Below, one piece after another: positions 1,449 through 24,853 of a DNA stretch of 58,936 bases (the first letter of the stretch is position 1; each line of letters opens with the position of its first letter). This DNA comes from a virus: IMG/VR virus record IMGVR_UViG_3300017613_001793, positions 1-58,936 of that record; one strand, written 5' to 3'. Both the position numbers and the translations under genes were made by a program. The notes under the pieces were generated by a model. It saw only the letters and a list, made by a program, of their open reading frames with translations, was not told the origin of the DNA and did not search any database.

Positions 1449-3095
<1,647 letters not shown>

Positions 3096-3107
3096 TTAAT
3101 TACTATT

Positions 3108-3395
3108 TTAAACTATTGCGAAGATATCTGACTCCTTCATCATCAGATATGTTTTGTCTTCAATAACTATTTCGGTTCCTGAATACTTCCCAAAAAGCAC
3201 TTCATCTCCTACTACAACAGTCATCGGTACAAACATTCCGTTTTCATACCTACCAAGCCCAGAGGCTACAACTCTTCCTTTTTGAGGTTTTTCTTTTGCC
3301 GAGTCTGGGATGATAATTCCCCCTGCAGTTTTCTCCTTAACTTGAGGCATTTCAATAATCACTCTGTCCGCGAGTGGTCTGATTTTAACTTCCAT
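3108..3395 (-). CDS. groES: Co-chaperonin GroES (small subunit)
   Basis: Full-length 95-residue GroES. It has the N-terminal [10 protein letters not shown] strand, the mobile loop region around [12 protein letters not shown] (about residues 20-31) with the GGI(I/V) tripeptide that contacts GroEL, and the C-terminal ESDIFAIV end. It is placed directly upstream of groEL in the usual bacterial order, 6 bases after the 100-residue gene, so it is an internal operon gene without its own promoter. The phage therefore supplies a complete chaperonin pair rather than only a GroES substitute such as T4 gp31. Confidence 0.97.
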
Positions 3396-4028: not shown

Positions 4029-4352
4029 TTATATTTTGTTGATTTCTTTTACTAAATAGTCATACATTTCCTCATCTTCTATACCAAGACCTTCTGCAAG
4101 ACCATCTCCATCACTTAAAGCTGTGATGAAAGAACCGCTTGACATTTCAGGTAATTTATTTTCAAATACTTGGTAGGTAATCCATTCGATATGATCTTTC
4201 ATACAATGTGGTGCTGAGAACTCTGATGTTGCTCTAAGCAATATTAGCTGGGCAACGCTTTCTGGTTTATTGTTCTCATTAATATTTCTAGCTACTGCCA
4301 CTTCTTTAGCAATTACTGCTATCTCTTTGTCTATTTGCTCCTTTGTAATCAT
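4029..4352 (-). CDS. Hypothetical protein, first gene of the groES-groEL unit
   Basis: A 107-residue soluble, mostly helical, acidic protein. It is the first gene after the promoter at 4386-4426 and its ATG is preceded by the ATCGG leader motif (AAAACATCGGTATT). It has no motif I can assign. Being first in a unit that also makes GroES and GroEL suggests expression in the early or middle phase. Confidence 0.55.
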   Translation of the reverse strand: MITKEQIDKEIAVIAKEVAVARNINENNKPESVAQLILLRATSEFSAPHCMKDHIEWITYQVFENKLPEMSSGSFITALSDGDGLAEGLGIEDEEMYDYLVKEINKI

Positions 4353-4385
4353 AATACCGATGTTTTAATGTTTTTAATTATACTA

Positions 4386-4426
4386 TAAAGATACGTACCC
4401 CATATGACATAAACAAATTTTATGTC
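4386..4426 (-). promoter_or_regulatory. Bacteroidota-type promoter with palindromic operator (unit 4352-1272)
   Basis: On the minus strand, TTTG (4417-4414) is followed after exactly 20 bases by TATCTTTA (4393-4386), close to the Bacteroidota TTTG-N19-21-TAnnTTTG consensus. The TTTG sits inside an inverted repeat with arms GACATAAA/TTTATGTC (4406-4426). The sequence after the -7 box (TAGTATAATTAAAAACATT, then AAAACATCGG) resembles the leaders of the other four copies of this element. It is inferred to drive the operon that ends with groEL. Confidence 0.55.
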
Positions 4427-4432
4427 AGAAAT

Positions 4433-4639
4433 CTACTTATTTCTATAAATTAAATCAGTGTATAGCCTTAATCGCTTGGATTTCCATACATATTCGCTAT
4501 TTAGTAGTTCAATGGCTTTCTCGTATTTGATATCATTCAATTCAATCTTATTCTCATACCTCTTGAATTGGACGACGCCTCCTACTATTAATACTATTGC
4601 CAATATAAGTATTGTTATTAATTTCCCTTGAACATTCAT
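4433..4639 (-). CDS. Small single-span membrane protein
   Basis: A 68-residue protein with one transmembrane helix near the N-terminus (about residues 6-25, ITILILAIVLIVGGVV) and a charged C-terminal domain. Its start overlaps the end of the upstream gene by 4 bases, which is typical of translational coupling. It is the last gene of the unit starting at 8682. The topology resembles small phage spanin- or Rz-like proteins, but no partner is recognisable. Confidence 0.5.
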   Translation of the reverse strand: MNVQGKLITILILAIVLIVGGVVQFKRYENKIELNDIKYEKAIELLNSEYVWKSKRLRLYTDLIYRNK

Positions 4640-5556
4640 TTCTTTGAGTTTTTTTGTTTCTCCATTATTATTTCAAATGCAGTTCTGTTTGAATCTCTTA
4701 TTTTCTTTTCTACTGTATCTATTGTGTTCCCAGACTTTCTCCTTTGTTCTCTAATCTTATTTCCAAATACATCGTTGTGCGATACTTTTGCTAAAGGAGA
4801 TTCTTCTATTTCTTCATGGTCAATGTCTTCTGTTTCTTCGACGACGTCCTGAACTAATTCGGCTGTCTGTATTAATGCATCGTTGAATAGCTCAATTTCT
4901 GGGCCATCATCTTTGACTAATTTAGTTGCCGTCATTAGCTCTATTAATTCAATCAACTCTTTTGTGGTTAACTTATCGAAATTATATCCCTCTCCGTCAG
5001 CCTCTACTTTATCCCTATTAACGAAGTTGTTCAGTTGAATGTTATACTTTTTTGTATGCAGTCCTAATAATCTTTCTTTTGCTATAAGCGCATCCATTGC
5101 TAAAATGTAATGCTCGATTCTTTTGTATTTATGTTTAAACCCTATTAATCCAGCAGCCGCCGATATGTGTTTGTCGTGAGTGGAATCATATCTTCTTAGA
5201 TGTAACCCTATTAGGTAATCTTTATTCTCCTCGAATTCTTGAACTATTTGGGTATTAGCATTCATTATTAATGTAGCCGCATAGTCTGAGGTATACCCTC
5301 TCTCTTCTAATACAGTTATAATATCTGACCTCTTGTACCCTTCTTTATACATCTTAATTACATCATTCGATACTTGAGACGTTGTCGTAATCTTCGAATC
5401 GCATAATTTATGTAGGAAATCTTTAATAGTTTGTGTCAGCTTGATTTTGATTTTACCCTTATTGACATCTCTCAAGTATGGATAATCGTGTTTCTGCACC
5501 CATTTGATTTGCTTACCTTTATATTTTCCTGTTTTAAATACGTATGTGAGTGACAT
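4636..5556 (-). CDS. Terminase-small-subunit-like DNA-binding protein (paralogue 2)
   Basis: A 306-residue protein. The N-terminus (KTGKYKGKQIKWVQ, about 8-21) resembles the short C-terminal module of ExoX-type nucleases. It is followed by a helix-turn-helix-like region (VIKMYKEGYKRSDIITVLEE, about 65-84). A LLGLHTKKYNIQLNNF motif follows at about 163-178 and closely matches LHDQNVNIQINNY in the gene immediately upstream. This layout of a helical DNA-binding part and then a short oligomerisation-like motif is common in small terminase subunits. No large terminase subunit is in the window, so packaging is an inference. The C-terminal third is acidic. Confidence 0.45.
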   Translation of the reverse strand: MSLTYVFKTGKYKGKQIKWVQKHDYPYLRDVNKGKIKIKLTQTIKDFLHKLCDSKITTTSQVSNDVIKMYKEGYKRSDIITVLEERGYTSDYAATLIMNANTQIVQEFEENKDYLIGLHLRRYDSTHDKHISAAAGLIGFKHKYKRIEHYILAMDALIAKERLLGLHTKKYNIQLNNFVNRDKVEADGEGYNFDKLTTKELIELIELMTATKLVKDDGPEIELFNDALIQTAELVQDVVEETEDIDHEEIEESPLAKVSHNDVFGNKIREQRRKSGNTIDTVEKKIRDSNRTAFEIIMEKQKNSKK

Positions 5557-6251
5557 TATATAACTTTTATTTTAGACAATAGTTCTTTTAATCTGTGTTG
5601 CTTTTCTGCAGGCAGAATATCTATGTTGAACTCCCTGTCCATATAGTTGTTTATTTGAATGTTTACATTCTGGTCGTGTAATCCCGCCACATTCTCTTTA
5701 CTCCTCAGTGCCTTTAATGCATATGAATCTGCCCCTTCTTCTCTGAATTTAGAATATAGCGTTTCAAATCTGTCGATGTGACTTAGCAATATCTCTTCAT
5801 GAGTTACTATGGACGACTTTCTTATTTCCTCTTCTGCTAAACTTATTTCCTTTGAGACATGTACTAATGATATTCCGAACTCTGCACTTATTAAGTCTTT
5901 TATCTGCATATCACCCAAGCCTTTCATTTTAGCCTCCAGAATGATTTTTCTTCTTAGCATCATTAATTCAGTGTTTCCTCCTGATGTGCTGCCCAATCCT
6001 CCTTTGACGCTACTTTTCTTTAATACCTTAATTTCTGCCTTAGGTAATTTTTTCTCAAAGGCTTTCTTGGCTTTAGCAGCTTCTTTATCTAAGAGCTCTT
6101 GCCTAGTCTTAGCTAATGCTTTGAAATTCTTATCCTCATATCTTTTGACCTTACCATTCTTGTAAGTACGCAAGAAGAAGAATATTTTCTTTTCTTTGTC
6201 GTTAGCTATCTCTGAAAGAGGTACTCCTGTAAATTCTTTTTTTGCTGGCAT
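5556..6251 (-). CDS. Terminase-small-subunit-like DNA-binding protein (paralogue 1)
   Basis: A 231-residue protein. Residues 1-75 are very basic (many Lys), residues 95-140 look like a helix-turn-helix unit (KIILEAKMKGLGDMQIKDLI, then FGISLVHVSKEI), and residues about 193-205 contain the motif LHDQNVNIQINNY that is also present in the downstream neighbour. Coupled with that neighbour by a 1-base overlap, it probably acts with it. A small terminase subunit is the best guess; a transcription regulator is the alternative. Confidence 0.45.
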   Translation of the reverse strand: MPAKKEFTGVPLSEIANDKEKKIFFFLRTYKNGKVKRYEDKNFKALAKTRQELLDKEAAKAKKAFEKKLPKAEIKVLKKSSVKGGLGSTSGGNTELMMLRRKIILEAKMKGLGDMQIKDLISAEFGISLVHVSKEISLAEEEIRKSSIVTHEEILLSHIDRFETLYSKFREEGADSYALKALRSKENVAGLHDQNVNIQINNYMDREFNIDILPAEKQHRLKELLSKIKVI

Positions 6252-17888: not shown

Positions 17889-17946
17889 TAAAAATAAATA
17901 CAATTTCTGAGATAAACTAATTTTATTTAAGATAAAATGATTTTAT
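17889..17946 (-). promoter_or_regulatory. Promoter element with ATAAAA/TTTTAT palindrome (unit 17859-9926)
   Basis: On the minus strand TATTTTTA (17896-17889) is preceded, after exactly 20 bases, by TTAG (17920-17917), in the position where two sister sites have TTTG. A 15-base inverted repeat ATAAAATGATTTTAT (17932-17946) lies just upstream and overlaps the queC stop codon. The same 15 bases occur at 24346-24360. The leader GGGTATAATTAATTAAAAAC and then ACATCGTT runs to the start codon. Confidence 0.45.
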
Positions 17947-18995
17947 TTTGCTTTTTTAGCTAAAAACTCTTCATAACCCTTCTTTCTTAGCTCACAAGCT
18001 GGACAATCATCGCATCCATACCCCCAATCGTGAAACTTATCTCTGTCTCCATTATAGCAAGTATGACTTTCTGCTATTACGAATCCTAGACAACCTTCTT
18101 TCTCTGCCAATTCGAAAGTTTCTGCTTTATCTAAATACATTAGTGGTGTCTCAATCTTTATCAGACCTATATTAGCCATGTTCGCGCTAATGTCCCCATT
18201 CGCCTCTCTACCTAGAAATGATTCATGGTCACTTACCCATTTCTCGAATTTCTCCTTACCTCTTCCATTAGCCCCATACTTTCTCATCAGATTAGCCACA
18301 TACTCACATTTTGCATATGAAAGCCTAAACTCCCAAGTATCTAATTTGCCTAGAGAGTTCTCGTTCTTCTTCCTCTTTGTAACAGTCCCAGCTCCAAAGA
18401 AAGCTTGTATTTGATTTAGTATTCCCTCATCTGCCTGCTCTACTGAGAAGGTTGGGTAATATACTTTTCCTGCCTTTGTCTCGTAAGAGCTTCTTGAAAA
18501 AGAACCCTCTCCATCTATAAAGCCTGCAATCCACTCTGGAGTAAGTGAGTGACCACTACTTCCAATATTACTCGTCTTTTCTATTTCATTAATAAAAGTA
18601 CGACGACAATCAAAATAACCACTGAAATCAGTTTCACATGTTCCTGTAACTAAAGTCTCAGCTCCAATCTTCTGTGCGTAAGCGTGTGCCAGCGTTATAA
18701 ACAATTGATTCCTATTTGGAACGAAAGAATCTGGTAAGCCTTTGTCGTTAAGCTTATTGACGTCTCCGTTAGAAGTTAATGCACTTTCTACTAAAGTTCC
18801 CAAGAATGAGATATCAATAACTGTTTGCTTTACCCCTTCACTATTACATATGGTTTTAGCACAATCTAATTCAACAGAGTGTTTCTGTCCATAATTAAAT
18901 GTAATTGCTTCTACTATGTCATATCGGCTTAGTGCCCAATATAAGCATGTTGTGGAGTCCTGACCCCCTGAAAATATTACTACTGCTTTTTTCAT
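17943..18995 (-). CDS. queC: 7-cyano-7-deazaguanine (preQ0) synthase QueC with an inserted LAGLIDADG domain
   Basis: QueC converts 7-carboxy-7-deazaguanine to preQ0 using ATP and ammonia. The ATP loop SGGQDST is at residues 9-15. The family block TGTCETDFSGYFDC is at 117-130, IETPLMYLDKAETFELA at 281-297, and the four zinc cysteines are C313, C328, C331 and C334. Normal QueC has about 220 residues; this one has 350 because about 129 residues (143-271) are inserted. They contain a LAGLIDADG motif (WIAGFIDGEGSF, 155-166). Without the insert the reading EKTS-NMANIGL restores the usual family spacing. Last gene of its unit. Confidence 0.9.
   Translation of the reverse strand: MKKAVVIFSGGQDSTTCLYWALSRYDIVEAITFNYGQKHSVELDCAKTICNSEGVKQTVIDISFLGTLVESALTSNGDVNKLNDKGLPDSFVPNRNQLFITLAHAYAQKIGAETLVTGTCETDFSGYFDCRRTFINEIEKTSNIGSSGHSLTPEWIAGFIDGEGSFSRSSYETKAGKVYYPTFSVEQADEGILNQIQAFFGAGTVTKRKKNENSLGKLDTWEFRLSYAKCEYVANLMRKYGANGRGKEKFEKWVSDHESFLGREANGDISANMANIGLIKIETPLMYLDKAETFELAEKEGCLGFVIAESHTCYNGDRDKFHDWGYGCDDCPACELRKKGYEEFLAKKAK
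18183..18569 (-). mobile_element. LAGLIDADG homing-endonuclease domain inserted in queC (possible compact intron)
   Basis: A 387-base in-frame segment encoding residues 143-271 of the queC reading frame. It has one LAGLIDADG helix (residues 155-166) and about 100 further residues of the type seen in single-motif LAGLIDADG proteins, which act as dimers. No intein signatures are visible: there is no Cys/Ser at the N junction with a TxxH block, and no C-terminal HN plus Cys/Ser/Thr. The borders I infer from QueC alignment leave T before the insert and G as its last base, as group I introns require. Too little space remains for an obvious intron core. Boundaries may shift by a few codons. Confidence 0.7.
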
Positions 18996-19539: not shown

Positions 19540-20313
19540 TTAATGTATATAACTTCTGAACATTTTTACATTGTGCGTGATGCACTTTAATTCCTCCTCT
19601 GAGATATCTCTATCTAGATTGTCAGCAATCAATTCTGCTGGCTTTTCGAATGAGAATGGTTCTTTTGTGAACTTATTCATATTCCAACCATGCACTATTG
19701 GAGCGCTTGTATCTACAGAGTGAATGTAATCCATTACATTTCTGTCATACTCCAAGAATTCAGATGCATTCTGACATCCTAATAAATGGAGTTTTTTATT
19801 CTCCAATCTACTATTGCGTCTCAAATACTCTAGGAAATCTTTTCTACCATTTCCATCAGACAATGTCTTGAAATTAATCCCCACAATGTCAATTCTGTTT
19901 TCTGTGCAGAAATAATCGAAGCACTCTACATATTCTTTTAATGTAGTTCCTTGAACCACAGCGAAGAATTTAGGTGTCGAAGCTGCTCCATACTTTTCTA
20001 AGTATTTGCGTACTGATGACATAGTTCCTCCCATATCTTGATACACATCTGGAATTACTAAGTGAGAAGGATTATACTCTTCACCTAATGCATGCAATAT
20101 GTCGCTATCAATTGGATAACCTAATTCATAGCAGCTATTGTCCAGGATAGAGAAATCCGCTTCTTCCATCTTTACTTTATAGAAATCTGCATATGTTGAA
20201 TCATAATGCCCCCCTCCCTCTATTAATAAGTGAGCTAATCCATAAGGATAGTCGTTTATTAAATCGTGTGCTTCAAAGAACATCTTCGGGATTTCGTGTG
20301 ATACTTTAATCAT
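19540..20313 (-). CDS. dpdA: DpdA-like DNA 7-deazaguanine transglycosylase
   Basis: A 257-residue TIM-barrel-type protein distantly like tRNA-guanine transglycosylase. Features are SILDNSCYELG (55-65, first conserved Asp D58), LVIPDVYQDMGGT (85-97), FFAVVQGTT (116-124), VGINFK (144-149), LHLLGCQNASEF (175-186) and IHSVDTSAPIVHGWN (197-211), where D201 matches the position of the catalytic Asp of TGT. DpdA enzymes exchange guanine in DNA for preQ0 or related bases. The surrounding folE, queE, queC and kinase genes in the same unit fully fit this. TGT-type action on tRNA is the alternative, but the short length and phage context favour DpdA. Confidence 0.75.
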   Translation of the reverse strand: MIKVSHEIPKMFFEAHDLINDYPYGLAHLLIEGGGHYDSTYADFYKVKMEEADFSILDNSCYELGYPIDSDILHALGEEYNPSHLVIPDVYQDMGGTMSSVRKYLEKYGAASTPKFFAVVQGTTLKEYVECFDYFCTENRIDIVGINFKTLSDGNGRKDFLEYLRRNSRLENKKLHLLGCQNASEFLEYDRNVMDYIHSVDTSAPIVHGWNMNKFTKEPFSFEKPAELIADNLDRDISEEELKCITHNVKMFRSYIH

Positions 20314-20836: not shown

Positions 20837-21463
20837 TTATAGCGTGTTAATAAAATTCTCAAATTCAGCTCTTGCTAAATTATCGTTATCTAAGAATACA
20901 CCTGTTAATTTAGATGTCTTCATAGTTGAGTTGTGCTTAATTCCTCTATGCGAGCAACAAGTGTGATTTGCAGATATTGAAACTGCTACACCTAAATTCC
21001 CCTCACATACCTTATCGATGTGTTTAGAGATTTGCTGCGTTAAGTTTTCTTGAACTTGTGGCCTTCTACTGTAGAATTCAACAATTCTGTTCAATTTTGA
21101 TAACCCAATAATCTTTCCGTTTGGAGAAGGAATGTATGCCACATGAACTTCACCTGCGAATGCTAAGTGGTGGTGTGAACACATTGACTTCATTTCGATA
21201 TTCCCTTGGAATACTAATCCATCATACTTTTCGATGTTATCGAAAGAAGTGATTTTCAGCTCCTCTTGGTAACGCCCCTTAATAAGGTCATTCACAAAAG
21301 ATTTAGCTACTCTCCTTGGAGTGTCAGCACTATTTGGGTCATCTGCATGGTCAATACCTAATGCTGTCATGAACTCTGCATAGTGACTTGCAGCTTTTGT
21401 AATCATTGCTTCTCTTTCCTCTTCATTTAGAGGCATGTTGTGGTGTGCATGTTTCTTTTCCAT
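20837..21463 (-). CDS. folE: GTP cyclohydrolase I (FolE)
   Basis: A 208-residue enzyme that turns GTP into 7,8-dihydroneopterin triphosphate, the first step of preQ0 synthesis. Zinc ligands lie in SMCSHHHLAFAG (C95 and the following His) and in HTCCSHRGIKH (167-177). ADTPRRVAKSF (46-56), the N-terminal family block, and RIVEFYSRRPQVQENLT (126-142) are typical. I chose the ATG at 21463, which overlaps the queE stop (TAATG); a longer frame to 21523 would overlap queE by 61 bases. Coupled to queE. Confidence 0.93.
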   Translation of the reverse strand: MEKKHAHHNMPLNEEEREAMITKAASHYAEFMTALGIDHADDPNSADTPRRVAKSFVNDLIKGRYQEELKITSFDNIEKYDGLVFQGNIEMKSMCSHHHLAFAGEVHVAYIPSPNGKIIGLSKLNRIVEFYSRRPQVQENLTQQISKHIDKVCEGNLGVAVSISANHTCCSHRGIKHNSTMKTSKLTGVFLDNDNLARAEFENFINTL

Positions 21464-22218
21464 TATACTCCTGTTGTTTGGTCCCAAACTTCTACTTGCA
21501 TACGCGATGTAAAATTCACGCATTGGTCTATAGCTATTTGAGCGGTTAATTTATTGTTAATTAATAATTCTTTTAATGTTGAAGCTGGTGGCATTAGCCA
21601 AACCTTCTTTCTATCTATGAATGGCAAGAAGTCTTTTACAATCTCCTCCCATTGTTCTTGCCGTGAAATTACGAACTTAAAGATAACATTTCCCTGCTGA
21701 CCTAAAGAATACAGCACATCTTTGTCATATCTAATTTTTCTGTCAATGCCTGAGTTAGATAATTTTGGGGAACAGTTTATCTGATTTACTGGAAAGTCAA
21801 CTACTATTGTTCCATTTGTTTCTAGCTCAATGAATGGTGTGAAGTTGTGCTTGTTTCTAAACCACTCTAGGTAAGCTTTAATCTTTTTCTTCTGTAATAA
21901 TGGCTCTCCGCCTGTTATTACTAAATGCGCTCCTTGATAAAGTCTTAACACCATCTTACCATCTAACACCTTTTCGAAAGGTACTTGACTTCCTTTTAGA
22001 AATACATTTGCCGTATCACAGAACCATTCTGCGTCGTCGACATCTTTTACTACTTCATCGATTTCACCCTTGACAAATCTATTGCCTTGTTTTTGTGTGA
22101 ATCCGCATGTTAGGTTGCAACTCTTTAATCTTAAAAAGACTGAAGGTATTCCTACTGTCCTACCCTCTCCTTGTAGAGAATAGAATACTTCTGATACTGC
22201 TATCGTTTCGTTTTTCAT
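21463..22218 (-). CDS. queE: 7-carboxy-7-deazaguanine synthase QueE (radical SAM)
   Basis: A 251-residue radical SAM enzyme that turns 6-carboxytetrahydropterin into 7-carboxy-7-deazaguanine. It begins MKNETIAVSEVFYSLQGEG, the QueE hallmark, followed by KSCNLTCGF and then, 28 residues after the second Cys, WFCDTAN. The cluster motif therefore reads C-x3-C-x28-C instead of the compact C-x3-C-x2-C. Further blocks are LVITGGEPLL and IELETNGT, both family motifs. The start is the ATG 11 bases after the helicase stop; an upstream start would overlap the helicase gene. Confidence 0.9.
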   Translation of the reverse strand: MKNETIAVSEVFYSLQGEGRTVGIPSVFLRLKSCNLTCGFTQKQGNRFVKGEIDEVVKDVDDAEWFCDTANVFLKGSQVPFEKVLDGKMVLRLYQGAHLVITGGEPLLQKKKIKAYLEWFRNKHNFTPFIELETNGTIVVDFPVNQINCSPKLSNSGIDRKIRYDKDVLYSLGQQGNVIFKFVISRQEQWEEIVKDFLPFIDRKKVWLMPPASTLKELLINNKLTAQIAIDQCVNFTSRMQVEVWDQTTGV

Positions 22219-22229
22219 TGATTTATTAT

Positions 22230-24281
22230 TTATGCTGTTTCTAATTCTTCTTTTACGTTCCACTTACCAGCTTTCAATAGTTCGTGAATTTTATCTATCT
22301 TAATATGACCTTTTGTTTTTGTACTATAAGTGCTTTTAAACTTTTCCTCTTCAGGCATTCCCTCTTTCCAATCCCAATCCCTATCTCGACTTACTAAATG
22401 AACAATCATATCATTGTTGTGCTTGTTGATTTTTCCTTTTGGAAATTCAAGCTTCTCAATTCTACCGTATTCCCAATCTCTAAAGTAGTTATTAAATCTT
22501 AGGTCCTTCTCTAATACGAAAACATTGTCTTTAGCAACATGCTCGTTGATAGTATTCTCCCACTGCTCTTGTTTAAACTTACGTGCCTGCTCTTTGAATT
22601 CTTCCAAATTGATTTTCGATTCCTCTAAATCATTTACCTGTGACAATATCCCTCGACTATCTTGCAGAAGTTCTTCTTCGTTATCTCTAAATACCTCCGA
22701 CATCTTCCCTAAAGCAATGCCTATATTAACATCAACCAGTCTGTCTCTTCCAGAACCGCTACTACCATAAGATAGTAACGGAATTGACACCTCGCCCTCC
22801 TTATTGAACACTACTGCGATTGTTGTTGTGCGATAATTACTGAAGGTTTCCTTATCTACGCTTTTTGAGAAATAGTATATTGTCGTACTCCTGTAGCTTT
22901 TCTCTACCACAAATTGTAAGTTATTATATCCACTTTTCATTAGCTTGGCTAGAAGTTCTCCTAGTAATTGGAACAGTTCTGCTATTTTCTCATCAGTTGT
23001 CTTGTTTTCTGCCTCAGCATATTCCAATCCCTTAGATAGGTTCTTCATATATTCCTCTGCCGACATCTCAACTATTTCTCCTACGAAATCTGTTAAGTCT
23101 TCAGTGTACTCACCACTAGCTGTTCTACCTACTATTTTATTTCCTTTCCTTTTTCCGTTAGGGTCTACTTTTGGGTCTAATGACCATTGCTTTGCAGAAC
23201 TTAATGTTCCATATTCTTCTGTCCAACCACAACAATCTAGAACTACCAATTCACTTCCGTCACTTTTAATCCTAGTTCCTCTTCCGACAATCTGCAAATA
23301 TAGTGTTAATGACTTAGTTGGTCTGGCACCTATAATACATCCTGTGTCGGGAAGGTCTACTCCCTCAGTAACCATTTCAACGTTGATTATGATTTGAACT
23401 TTCTTCTTTTCATAATCGCTAAATGCTTTTTCTATTTCCTGAGATGACTTAGTGGAGTCAATTTGTACTATTTTACTAGCCGCATATCCTCCATGCTTGA
23501 TGAAACAATCCCTTAAGTCAGCTGCGTGAGCTAAATCTACTGCGAATGCAATAGCTTGTTTTTCTTCCCCAAACTTCTTGTAAGTATCTACTATGTATTC
23601 TAAGTATTTGGGTTGGCGCATGTATCCACTTAATTCAGTAGACTGATAATCATTGCTATTTTCCTTCACCTGTTCCTTTAACGATTCTTTGTCAATAGGC
23701 GATTGGAATGTTTTGTATTTCGATAAATATCCTTTTTGAATTAATGATGCAGTCGTTTCCGTAGAATTAACTAATGTTTGATAGTGCTTATCTAAACGTT
23801 TTCCATCTTTACGATATGGTGTTGCATCTACCCCTAAAAGTTTATGTGTTGGGTATGCCTCAACTAGTGCGGTTAATACCTTATCATAACTATTGGTTCT
23901 AGAATGACGTGCTTCATCTATAATAACCCTATCCCATTTTCTAAGGATTAGTTTTTCTAAACGTTTGTCATTTACTGCAGTTCGGATTGAAACTACTACT
24001 ACAGGCGCATCTAAGTCTTCAGATTTCTGACCATATAATATACCTGTTTTGATACCTAAACCATTTAGTCTATCATGTAGCTGAGTTAAGAGCCTTTTCT
24101 TGTGTGCGAATATAAGTATTTGTTCTTTTGGGAACTTACTTACTAAATTTGTAAGTATTACACTTTTTCCACCTCCAGTAGGCAATTGATATAGAACTGA
24201 GCGAAATTCTTTCCACGCATTTTCTATGTTTTTAGTATCAGTTATCTGATAGTCTCTTAATTTAATGTCCGATTTTTTCAT
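22230..24281 (-). CDS. Superfamily 2 DNA helicase (DEAD/DEAH-like, UvsW/type III res-like)
   Basis: A 683-residue helicase. It has a Q-like start (LRDYQITDTKNI), Walker A PTGGGKS (34-40), motif II IIDEARH (120-126), motif III VDATPYRKDG, and the C-terminal RecA-like motifs VTEGVDLPDTGCIIGARPT and LQIVGRGTRIK. The C-terminal 280 residues carry no recognised domain. Likely roles are branch migration or replication-fork restart as for T4 UvsW. It is the first gene of the modification unit; its leader has AAAAATCGG, then AACGG just before the ATG. Confidence 0.9.
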   Translation of the reverse strand: MKKSDIKLRDYQITDTKNIENAWKEFRSVLYQLPTGGGKSVILTNLVSKFPKEQILIFAHKKRLLTQLHDRLNGLGIKTGILYGQKSEDLDAPVVVVSIRTAVNDKRLEKLILRKWDRVIIDEARHSRTNSYDKVLTALVEAYPTHKLLGVDATPYRKDGKRLDKHYQTLVNSTETTASLIQKGYLSKYKTFQSPIDKESLKEQVKENSNDYQSTELSGYMRQPKYLEYIVDTYKKFGEEKQAIAFAVDLAHAADLRDCFIKHGGYAASKIVQIDSTKSSQEIEKAFSDYEKKKVQIIINVEMVTEGVDLPDTGCIIGARPTKSLTLYLQIVGRGTRIKSDGSELVVLDCCGWTEEYGTLSSAKQWSLDPKVDPNGKRKGNKIVGRTASGEYTEDLTDFVGEIVEMSAEEYMKNLSKGLEYAEAENKTTDEKIAELFQLLGELLAKLMKSGYNNLQFVVEKSYRSTTIYYFSKSVDKETFSNYRTTTIAVVFNKEGEVSIPLLSYGSSGSGRDRLVDVNIGIALGKMSEVFRDNEEELLQDSRGILSQVNDLEESKINLEEFKEQARKFKQEQWENTINEHVAKDNVFVLEKDLRFNNYFRDWEYGRIEKLEFPKGKINKHNNDMIVHLVSRDRDWDWKEGMPEEEKFKSTYSTKTKGHIKIDKIHELLKAGKWNVKEELETA

Positions 24282-24370: not shown

Positions 24371-24853
24371 TTACTTTTCGTAGTAAATTCCTGAGTTTTT
24401 ATCATTCTCATTGCATTCTACCTTAACAACTTTACATCTATTAGCATCTGTCTTAGACATCACTTCATTCATCTTTTCGAAGACTAATCTTGCAACACTT
24501 TCGGCACCCATCTTATCTAATACGATAAGTTTAAGAATACCCATTTGTTCCATTTGTTGAAAGATATCCAAATACGGGTCATCCTTCTCTACCATAGTTA
24601 CGTGGTCAAACATACTGTTCATCCAAGTTTTTAGGCCATTCCCTCCACTTGGACTGTCTGCATCTTTAAAACCACCGAAGTCTACAATCCAGTTCATGTC
24701 ATCTAGTTGCTGGTCTACATCTGGCTCATTGCTTTCAAACCATACTTTAAACTTAAATGCATATCCATGTAGCAACTCACAATGCGAGTGAGATGCTTTC
24801 CATTGTCTTAATGCAATTGAATAATTGTCGAAAATTTTTGTTGATTGATACAT
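24371..24853 (-). CDS. queD: 6-carboxy-5,6,7,8-tetrahydropterin synthase (QueD)
   Basis: A 160-residue member of the 6-pyruvoyltetrahydropterin synthase/QueD family. It would convert dihydroneopterin triphosphate to 6-carboxytetrahydropterin, between FolE and QueE. The zinc region reads WKASHSHCELLHGYAFKF, so the usual H-G-H has become H-G-Y. The catalytic Cys and two His are present. Further features are MNWIVDFGGFKD and SMFDHVTM, both conserved. A subgroup of divergent QueD proteins has the same HGY form as far as I recall. It is the last gene of the polymerase unit, not in the same unit as queE and folE. Confidence 0.85.
   Translation of the reverse strand: MYQSTKIFDNYSIALRQWKASHSHCELLHGYAFKFKVWFESNEPDVDQQLDDMNWIVDFGGFKDADSPSGGNGLKTWMNSMFDHVTMVEKDDPYLDIFQQMEQMGILKLIVLDKMGAESVARLVFEKMNEVMSKTDANRCKVVKVECNENDKNSGIYYEK

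Follow-up and report, generated by a model that had tools for sequence, protein, structure and literature searches.

An in-frame LAGLIDADG domain in a loop of a phage QueC and its counterparts in phage DNA methylases

The queC gene in the window (the whole 58,936-nt stretch of viral DNA analysed, IMG/VR record IMGVR_UViG_3300017613_001793) contains an intact single-motif LAGLIDADG domain, confirmed here to lie in frame and modelled as a separate domain in a loop of four residues. A homing endonuclease within a gene is usually attributed to an intron or intein, because an insert that is not spliced should break the host gene. We consider it likely that this insert is a homing element that sits in the loop without being spliced, giving a 350-residue chain that is at once a working QueC and a dimerising, DNA-cutting homing endonuclease. 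The original prediction had offered two explanations, a homing domain tolerated within the enzyme and a minimal group I intron; the former is favoured and the latter disfavoured by what follows. Together with gene-converted equivalents in phage DNA methylases, the QueC insert suggests that splicing can be dispensed with where a loop is tolerant, and the loop-nested LAGLIDADG architecture is not peculiar to methylases.

The extended queC frame and its nested domain

The reading frame is open over all 350 codons, with no internal stops, and its product exceeds the insert-free sister QueCs of related phages (217-236 aa) by 129 residues, as measured in an alignment with 22 insert-free or intein-removed QueCs. 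This agrees with the excess of about 130 codons noted originally, and the positions then given for the insert and for the LAGLIDADG motif were also right (Table 1). Family assignment was by PF06508 (E 1.3e-68) and by TIGR00364 (above cut-off) in Pfam and NCBIfam searches. Residues 3-148 matched profile positions 1-149 and position 150 resumed beyond the insert, which places it between these two profile positions. The queC product retains every one of the 49 residues that are invariant in a set of 15 insert-free QueCs; P128F is the sole change at a near-invariant position. The C-terminal part keeps the four zinc cysteines (C313, C328, C331 and C334), and the QueC motifs on both sides, including the ATP loop, are intact as had been claimed.

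Table 1. Coordinates of the queC gene and its parts, other genes in the window, and frames compared in Rhodobacter phages
Feature	Coordinates	Strand	Description or basis
queC ORF	17943..18995	minus	350 codons, 7-cyano-7-deazaguanine synthase with nested domain
QueC N-terminal part, residues 1-145	18561..18995	minus	ATP loop SGGQDS; Pfam profile 1-149
Insert, residues about 143-271	18183..18569	minus	129 codons over family length; alignment with 22 QueCs
LAGLIDADG_1 homing-endonuclease domain, residues about 152-262	18210..18542	minus	PF00961, E 2.9e-11
Motif WIAGFIDGEGSF, residues 155-166	18498-18533	minus	retains the acidic residue E163
QueC C-terminal part, residues 279-350	17946..18161	minus	Pfam profile 150-209; conserved columns
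FolE, GTP cyclohydrolase I (preQ0 pathway)	20837..21523	minus	PF01227, E 1.8e-48
QueE-like radical SAM protein (preQ0 pathway)	21463..22263	minus	phrog_2076, E 1.1e-45
QueD-like protein (preQ0 pathway)	24371..24853	minus	phrog_2389, E 3.3e-33
GroEL-type chaperonin	1449-3077	minus	phrog_5725, E 4.5e-182
RcMrWorf (L246) methylase	4239-5972		with insert
RcSalem (L245) methylase	4239-5522		empty
RcIroh (L247) HNH endonuclease gene	2729-3265		overlaps thyX start
RcMcLean (L249) HNH endonuclease gene	2727-3263		overlaps thyX start

In the alignment, the insertion loop of the nearest sisters reads NxG-(4 residues)-IxIxTPL, and the insert follows the helix FINEIEKTSNIG and directly precedes IKIETPLM. 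Removing it restores the family spacing, as the original prediction held, but the exact borders proposed were not fixed by this, since any 129-codon block inside about residues 143-278 gives the same result. Because the borders slide over several codons, the argument that a T before the insert and a G at its end mark a group I intron has no weight. A near-direct repeat, TAATAT(T/A)GG, was considered as a pair of excision marks at the two junctions and rejected, as its copies are 132 codons apart and do not restore the spacing exactly; it is probably due to chance. Near the insert ends there is also an imperfect 11-base inverted repeat (18226-18236 and 18545-18555; TGGTCACTTAC and GTGAGTGACCA, 91% complementary), which could likewise be chance.

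The LAGLIDADG_1 profile (PF00961) matched residues 156-253 over positions 1-98 of 102, above its cut-off, and the domain is therefore complete. Almost nothing of the insert is left over, so that the earlier description of a motif with little else was too weak. Codons 120-200 contain no in-frame ATG, GTG, TTG or CTG; having no conventional start of its own near the motif in this frame, the endonuclease should exist only fused to QueC.

For structure prediction we used separate QueC and LAGLIDADG alignments; a joint alignment misplaced endonucleases onto QueC. The full-chain AlphaFold model, built on 29 sequences, superposed on Bacillus subtilis QueC (3bl5) with a Z score of 27.2 and an rmsd of 1.6 Angstrom over 192 residues, and pLDDT was mostly near or above 90 in its QueC part. 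The insert formed a separate region, flanked by helix 132-146 and strand 280-282, whose elements follow the LAGLIDADG order; its pLDDT in this model, where it had no alignment depth, was about 53-72. Modelled by itself (19 sequences, pLDDT 77), it adopted an alpha-beta-beta-alpha-beta-beta-alpha-alpha fold that Foldseek matched to I-OnuI and the single-motif I-TnaI with E about 1e-7.

FolE, QueD, QueE and QueC are all encoded in the window, making up the whole route from GTP to preQ0, which is also carried by phages that modify their DNA with 7-deazaguanines (PMC6884629). QueC with the domain attached should still make preQ0 for such modification. Elsewhere in the window, the phage encodes a GroEL-type chaperonin; identification of the product of 19540-20313 with a sister phage's transglycosylase-like protein was rejected, as the two do not match.

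Rarity of the insert and equivalent inserts in DNA methylases

Looking for empty sites in relatives, as the original prediction had suggested, we found that 297 of the 318 phage records containing QueC matched the query at one place over at least 80% of its length, and nearly every one of the 60 matches listed was a single piece close to full length. Among 80 viral QueC loci, the only interrupted QueC was that of the intein-bearing sister phage L014 (IMGVR_UViG_3300003536_000020). No second QueC with the same insert was present in the viral contigs, genome contigs and phages searched, a set that possibly excludes records very near the window. A close-relative scan of the viral contigs for the insert found none, the phage collection gave only two weak homing endonucleases, and a search of insert-free QueC carriers (six records or genomes), run without a positive control, gave no relatives. 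In 395 genomes of one phylum there were only seven weak matches (30-41% identity), and the nearest relatives found were about 25-42% identical. The queC insert is known from one metagenomic record only; the searched collections held no close relatives of this phage genome, and the QueCs most similar to its own came from Cellulophaga phages and others associated with Bacteroidetes.

To describe the wider occurrence of the architecture, we collected 84 distinct LAGLIDADG frames from viral contigs and applied an automatic criterion that asked for 60 residues ahead of the motif and 160 beyond it. This flagged five frames: the DNA methylases L124, L251, L252 and L253, and L151, a long protein that resembles an endonuclease and has no host enzyme that we could recognise. 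By inspection we added L096-L098 and L250, methylase frames that are truncated or have a shorter leader. Pfam recognised both methylase and LAGLIDADG domains in L124, L098, RcMrWorf, RcAqua, Taj, Phalconet, Hegedechwinu and Mova. The methylase insert site is a loop between the DPPY region and RVLKPGG, and the methylases of RcIroh and RHph_X2_25 have the same flanks with no insert. QueC was the only phage host enzyme other than a methylase that we found. In the methylase of L252 (IMGVR_UViG_3300017651_000041), the nested LAGLIDADG domain is accompanied by a long in-frame low-complexity stretch between two EPxVVARKP-like copies, which resembles the published ShiLan domain.

Twenty-two Rhodobacter phages have the methylase locus nearly fully in common, and the insert is present in 3 (577 aa) and absent from 19, with a length of 427 aa in the empty methylases that were read. 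RcMrWorf, with the insert, and RcSalem, empty, differ in their surroundings at only 4 of 885 positions upstream and 19 of 2409 downstream (together 23 of 3294), whereas the tract directly upstream of the insert has 52 mismatches in 233 positions (Fisher p 5e-46 against the surroundings) and the stretch just downstream has 21 in 80. At the protein level, the inserts of RcMrWorf and the uncultured phage L124 share 68% identity. Homing with co-conversion of the flanks would leave a bounded divergent tract of this kind, and a similar one could arise if an insert-bearing but divergent allele took part in ordinary recombination; by either route, the tract is evidence that an unspliced methylase insert moved. 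Another presence/absence polymorphism lies nearby, as RcIroh and RcMcLean have an HNH endonuclease gene that overlaps the start of thyX upstream of the methylase and is absent from RcSalem and RcMrWorf. In the mycobacteriophages Taj and Kersh, the nested peptides are of equal length and differ with dN 0.20 and dS 2.2, the latter near saturation, which indicates purifying selection on the nested reading frame.

Explanations for the queC insert

Read as a minimal group I intron, the 387 bases would splice themselves out as RNA, their core would overlap the coding sequence and the mature QueC would have about 221 residues. While its position and in-frame length would permit this, and a U/G border rule can be satisfied because the borders slide, an Rfam search of 1.1 kb of the queC locus at E<=10 gave nothing for group I introns, its only hit being to an lncRNA of no relevance on the opposite strand, and the insert RNA folds no better than shuffled sequences (z = -0.32). 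In addition, a coding domain that has no start codon of its own occupies nearly the whole insert, the methylase inserts of L124 and L098 likewise had no Rfam matches, and published work on the Taj-type insert saw no intron supporting it (PMC11855218). Rfam and folding by themselves leave room for a very divergent RNA splicing element; on all the evidence we regard an intron as extremely unlikely. Less credible still is an unusual intein that has no recognisable splice blocks. An in-frame insert with a LAGLIDADG domain is like endonuclease-bearing inteins, and true inteins do invade phage queC, as in L014, but the endonuclease fills the 129 residues and leaves no room for an intein splicing domain, and the insertion point lies in a variable loop rather than in a conserved motif of the active site. 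Intein profiles of Pfam and NCBIfam gave no matches to the queC product, in keeping with the splice blocks having been reported as missing from the start, whereas the same models found the L014 intein, which scored above cut-off for TIGR01443 (intein C-terminal) and weakly, below cut-off, for TIGR01445 (N-terminal). That intein, in the queC of L014 (2561-4186), has 318 residues, begins with Cys, ends in His-Asn followed by Ser, contains an HNH-like endonuclease region and interrupts the conserved motif ETDY|SGYPDC. Phage queC is thus open to at least two different kinds of mobile insert.

More plausible than either, yet still unlikely in our judgement, is a domesticated or decaying domain that has lost homing and survives as an appendage of QueC, either neutral or DNA-binding. 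The ordinary codon use of the insert for this genome, the lack of a known second copy and the distance of its nearest relatives would fit this; against it, the motif is intact, including E163, the fold is complete, and strong purifying selection acts on the corresponding inserts in methylases, which have moved recently. The single metagenomic record also leaves a very small chance that the gene is an assembly chimera or a queC inactivated by a random insertion, but both junctions preserve the reading frame, the loop is the expected one, the insert contains a complete domain and has native codon use, and the host enzyme retains every invariant QueC residue.

What the analysis shows for queC is the anatomy of the gene and a lack of recognisable splicing signals; QueC activity, dimerisation, cutting and homing of the unspliced, loop-nested element are inferred, as follows. 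The LAGLIDADG domain occupies, in frame, the four-residue loop between a helix and the IxIxTPL strand, and the whole gene would be translated as one 350-residue chain whose QueC part folds around the insert and keeps making preQ0. The single-motif endonuclease, which needs a partner, would dimerise. QueC is a homodimer, and could supply the dimer geometry that such an endonuclease needs. The endonuclease dimer would then cut the insert-free queC of co-infecting phages near the loop, and repair from the insert-bearing copy would spread the insert. For queC, the conversion tract in the methylases serves as an analogy and does not prove these last steps. With slightly less than even confidence, we suggest that unspliced homing domains in variable loops of unrelated phage enzymes could be a general third way beside introns and inteins. 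The cultured Rhodobacter phage pairs make the question of unspliced homing testable, and other overlong phage enzyme genes may hide mobile elements.

Comparison with known systems

The original prediction had called the arrangement unusual, which holds, but it is not without precedent: a lone LAGLIDADG domain has been published in mycobacteriophage DNA methylases of the Taj_79 type (PMC9957025, PMC11855218). Like the queC insert, it is a single-motif LAGLIDADG in frame, forms its own domain in predicted structures and has no detectable intein or intron; the queC insert shares this anatomy in its in-frame LAGLIDADG, the splicing apparatus that searches did not find and its insert-free homologues. 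The hosts differ, an N6/N4 DNA methylase in the one case and a 7-deazaguanine synthase in the other. While the authors saw no strong evidence of transfer of the Taj-type insert between lineages (PMC9957025), such evidence now comes, for this architecture, from the Rhodobacter pair. What is new here is a host enzyme unrelated to methylases and evidence that the unspliced form moves.

In the fungal mitochondrial rps3 fusions (the I-OnuI and I-LtrI group), the endonuclease is also in frame with a host protein gene, and this group is among the solved structures closest to the queC insert. The rps3 fusions are double-motif enzymes inside an rnl group I intron (PMC5626475), unlike the queC insert, which has a single motif and lies in a phage metabolic enzyme with no intron. 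By comparison, the ShiLan domain (PMC11855218) is, like the queC insert, read through in frame in a phage enzyme gene with no detectable splicing, and it spreads; its endonuclease is an HNH enzyme in another reading frame, whereas that of queC is in the enzyme's own frame. The L014 intein is likewise a mobile insert in queC, in a sister phage, and differs in its length, splice motifs, HNH-like region and conserved target motif from the LAGLIDADG domain nested in the variable loop.
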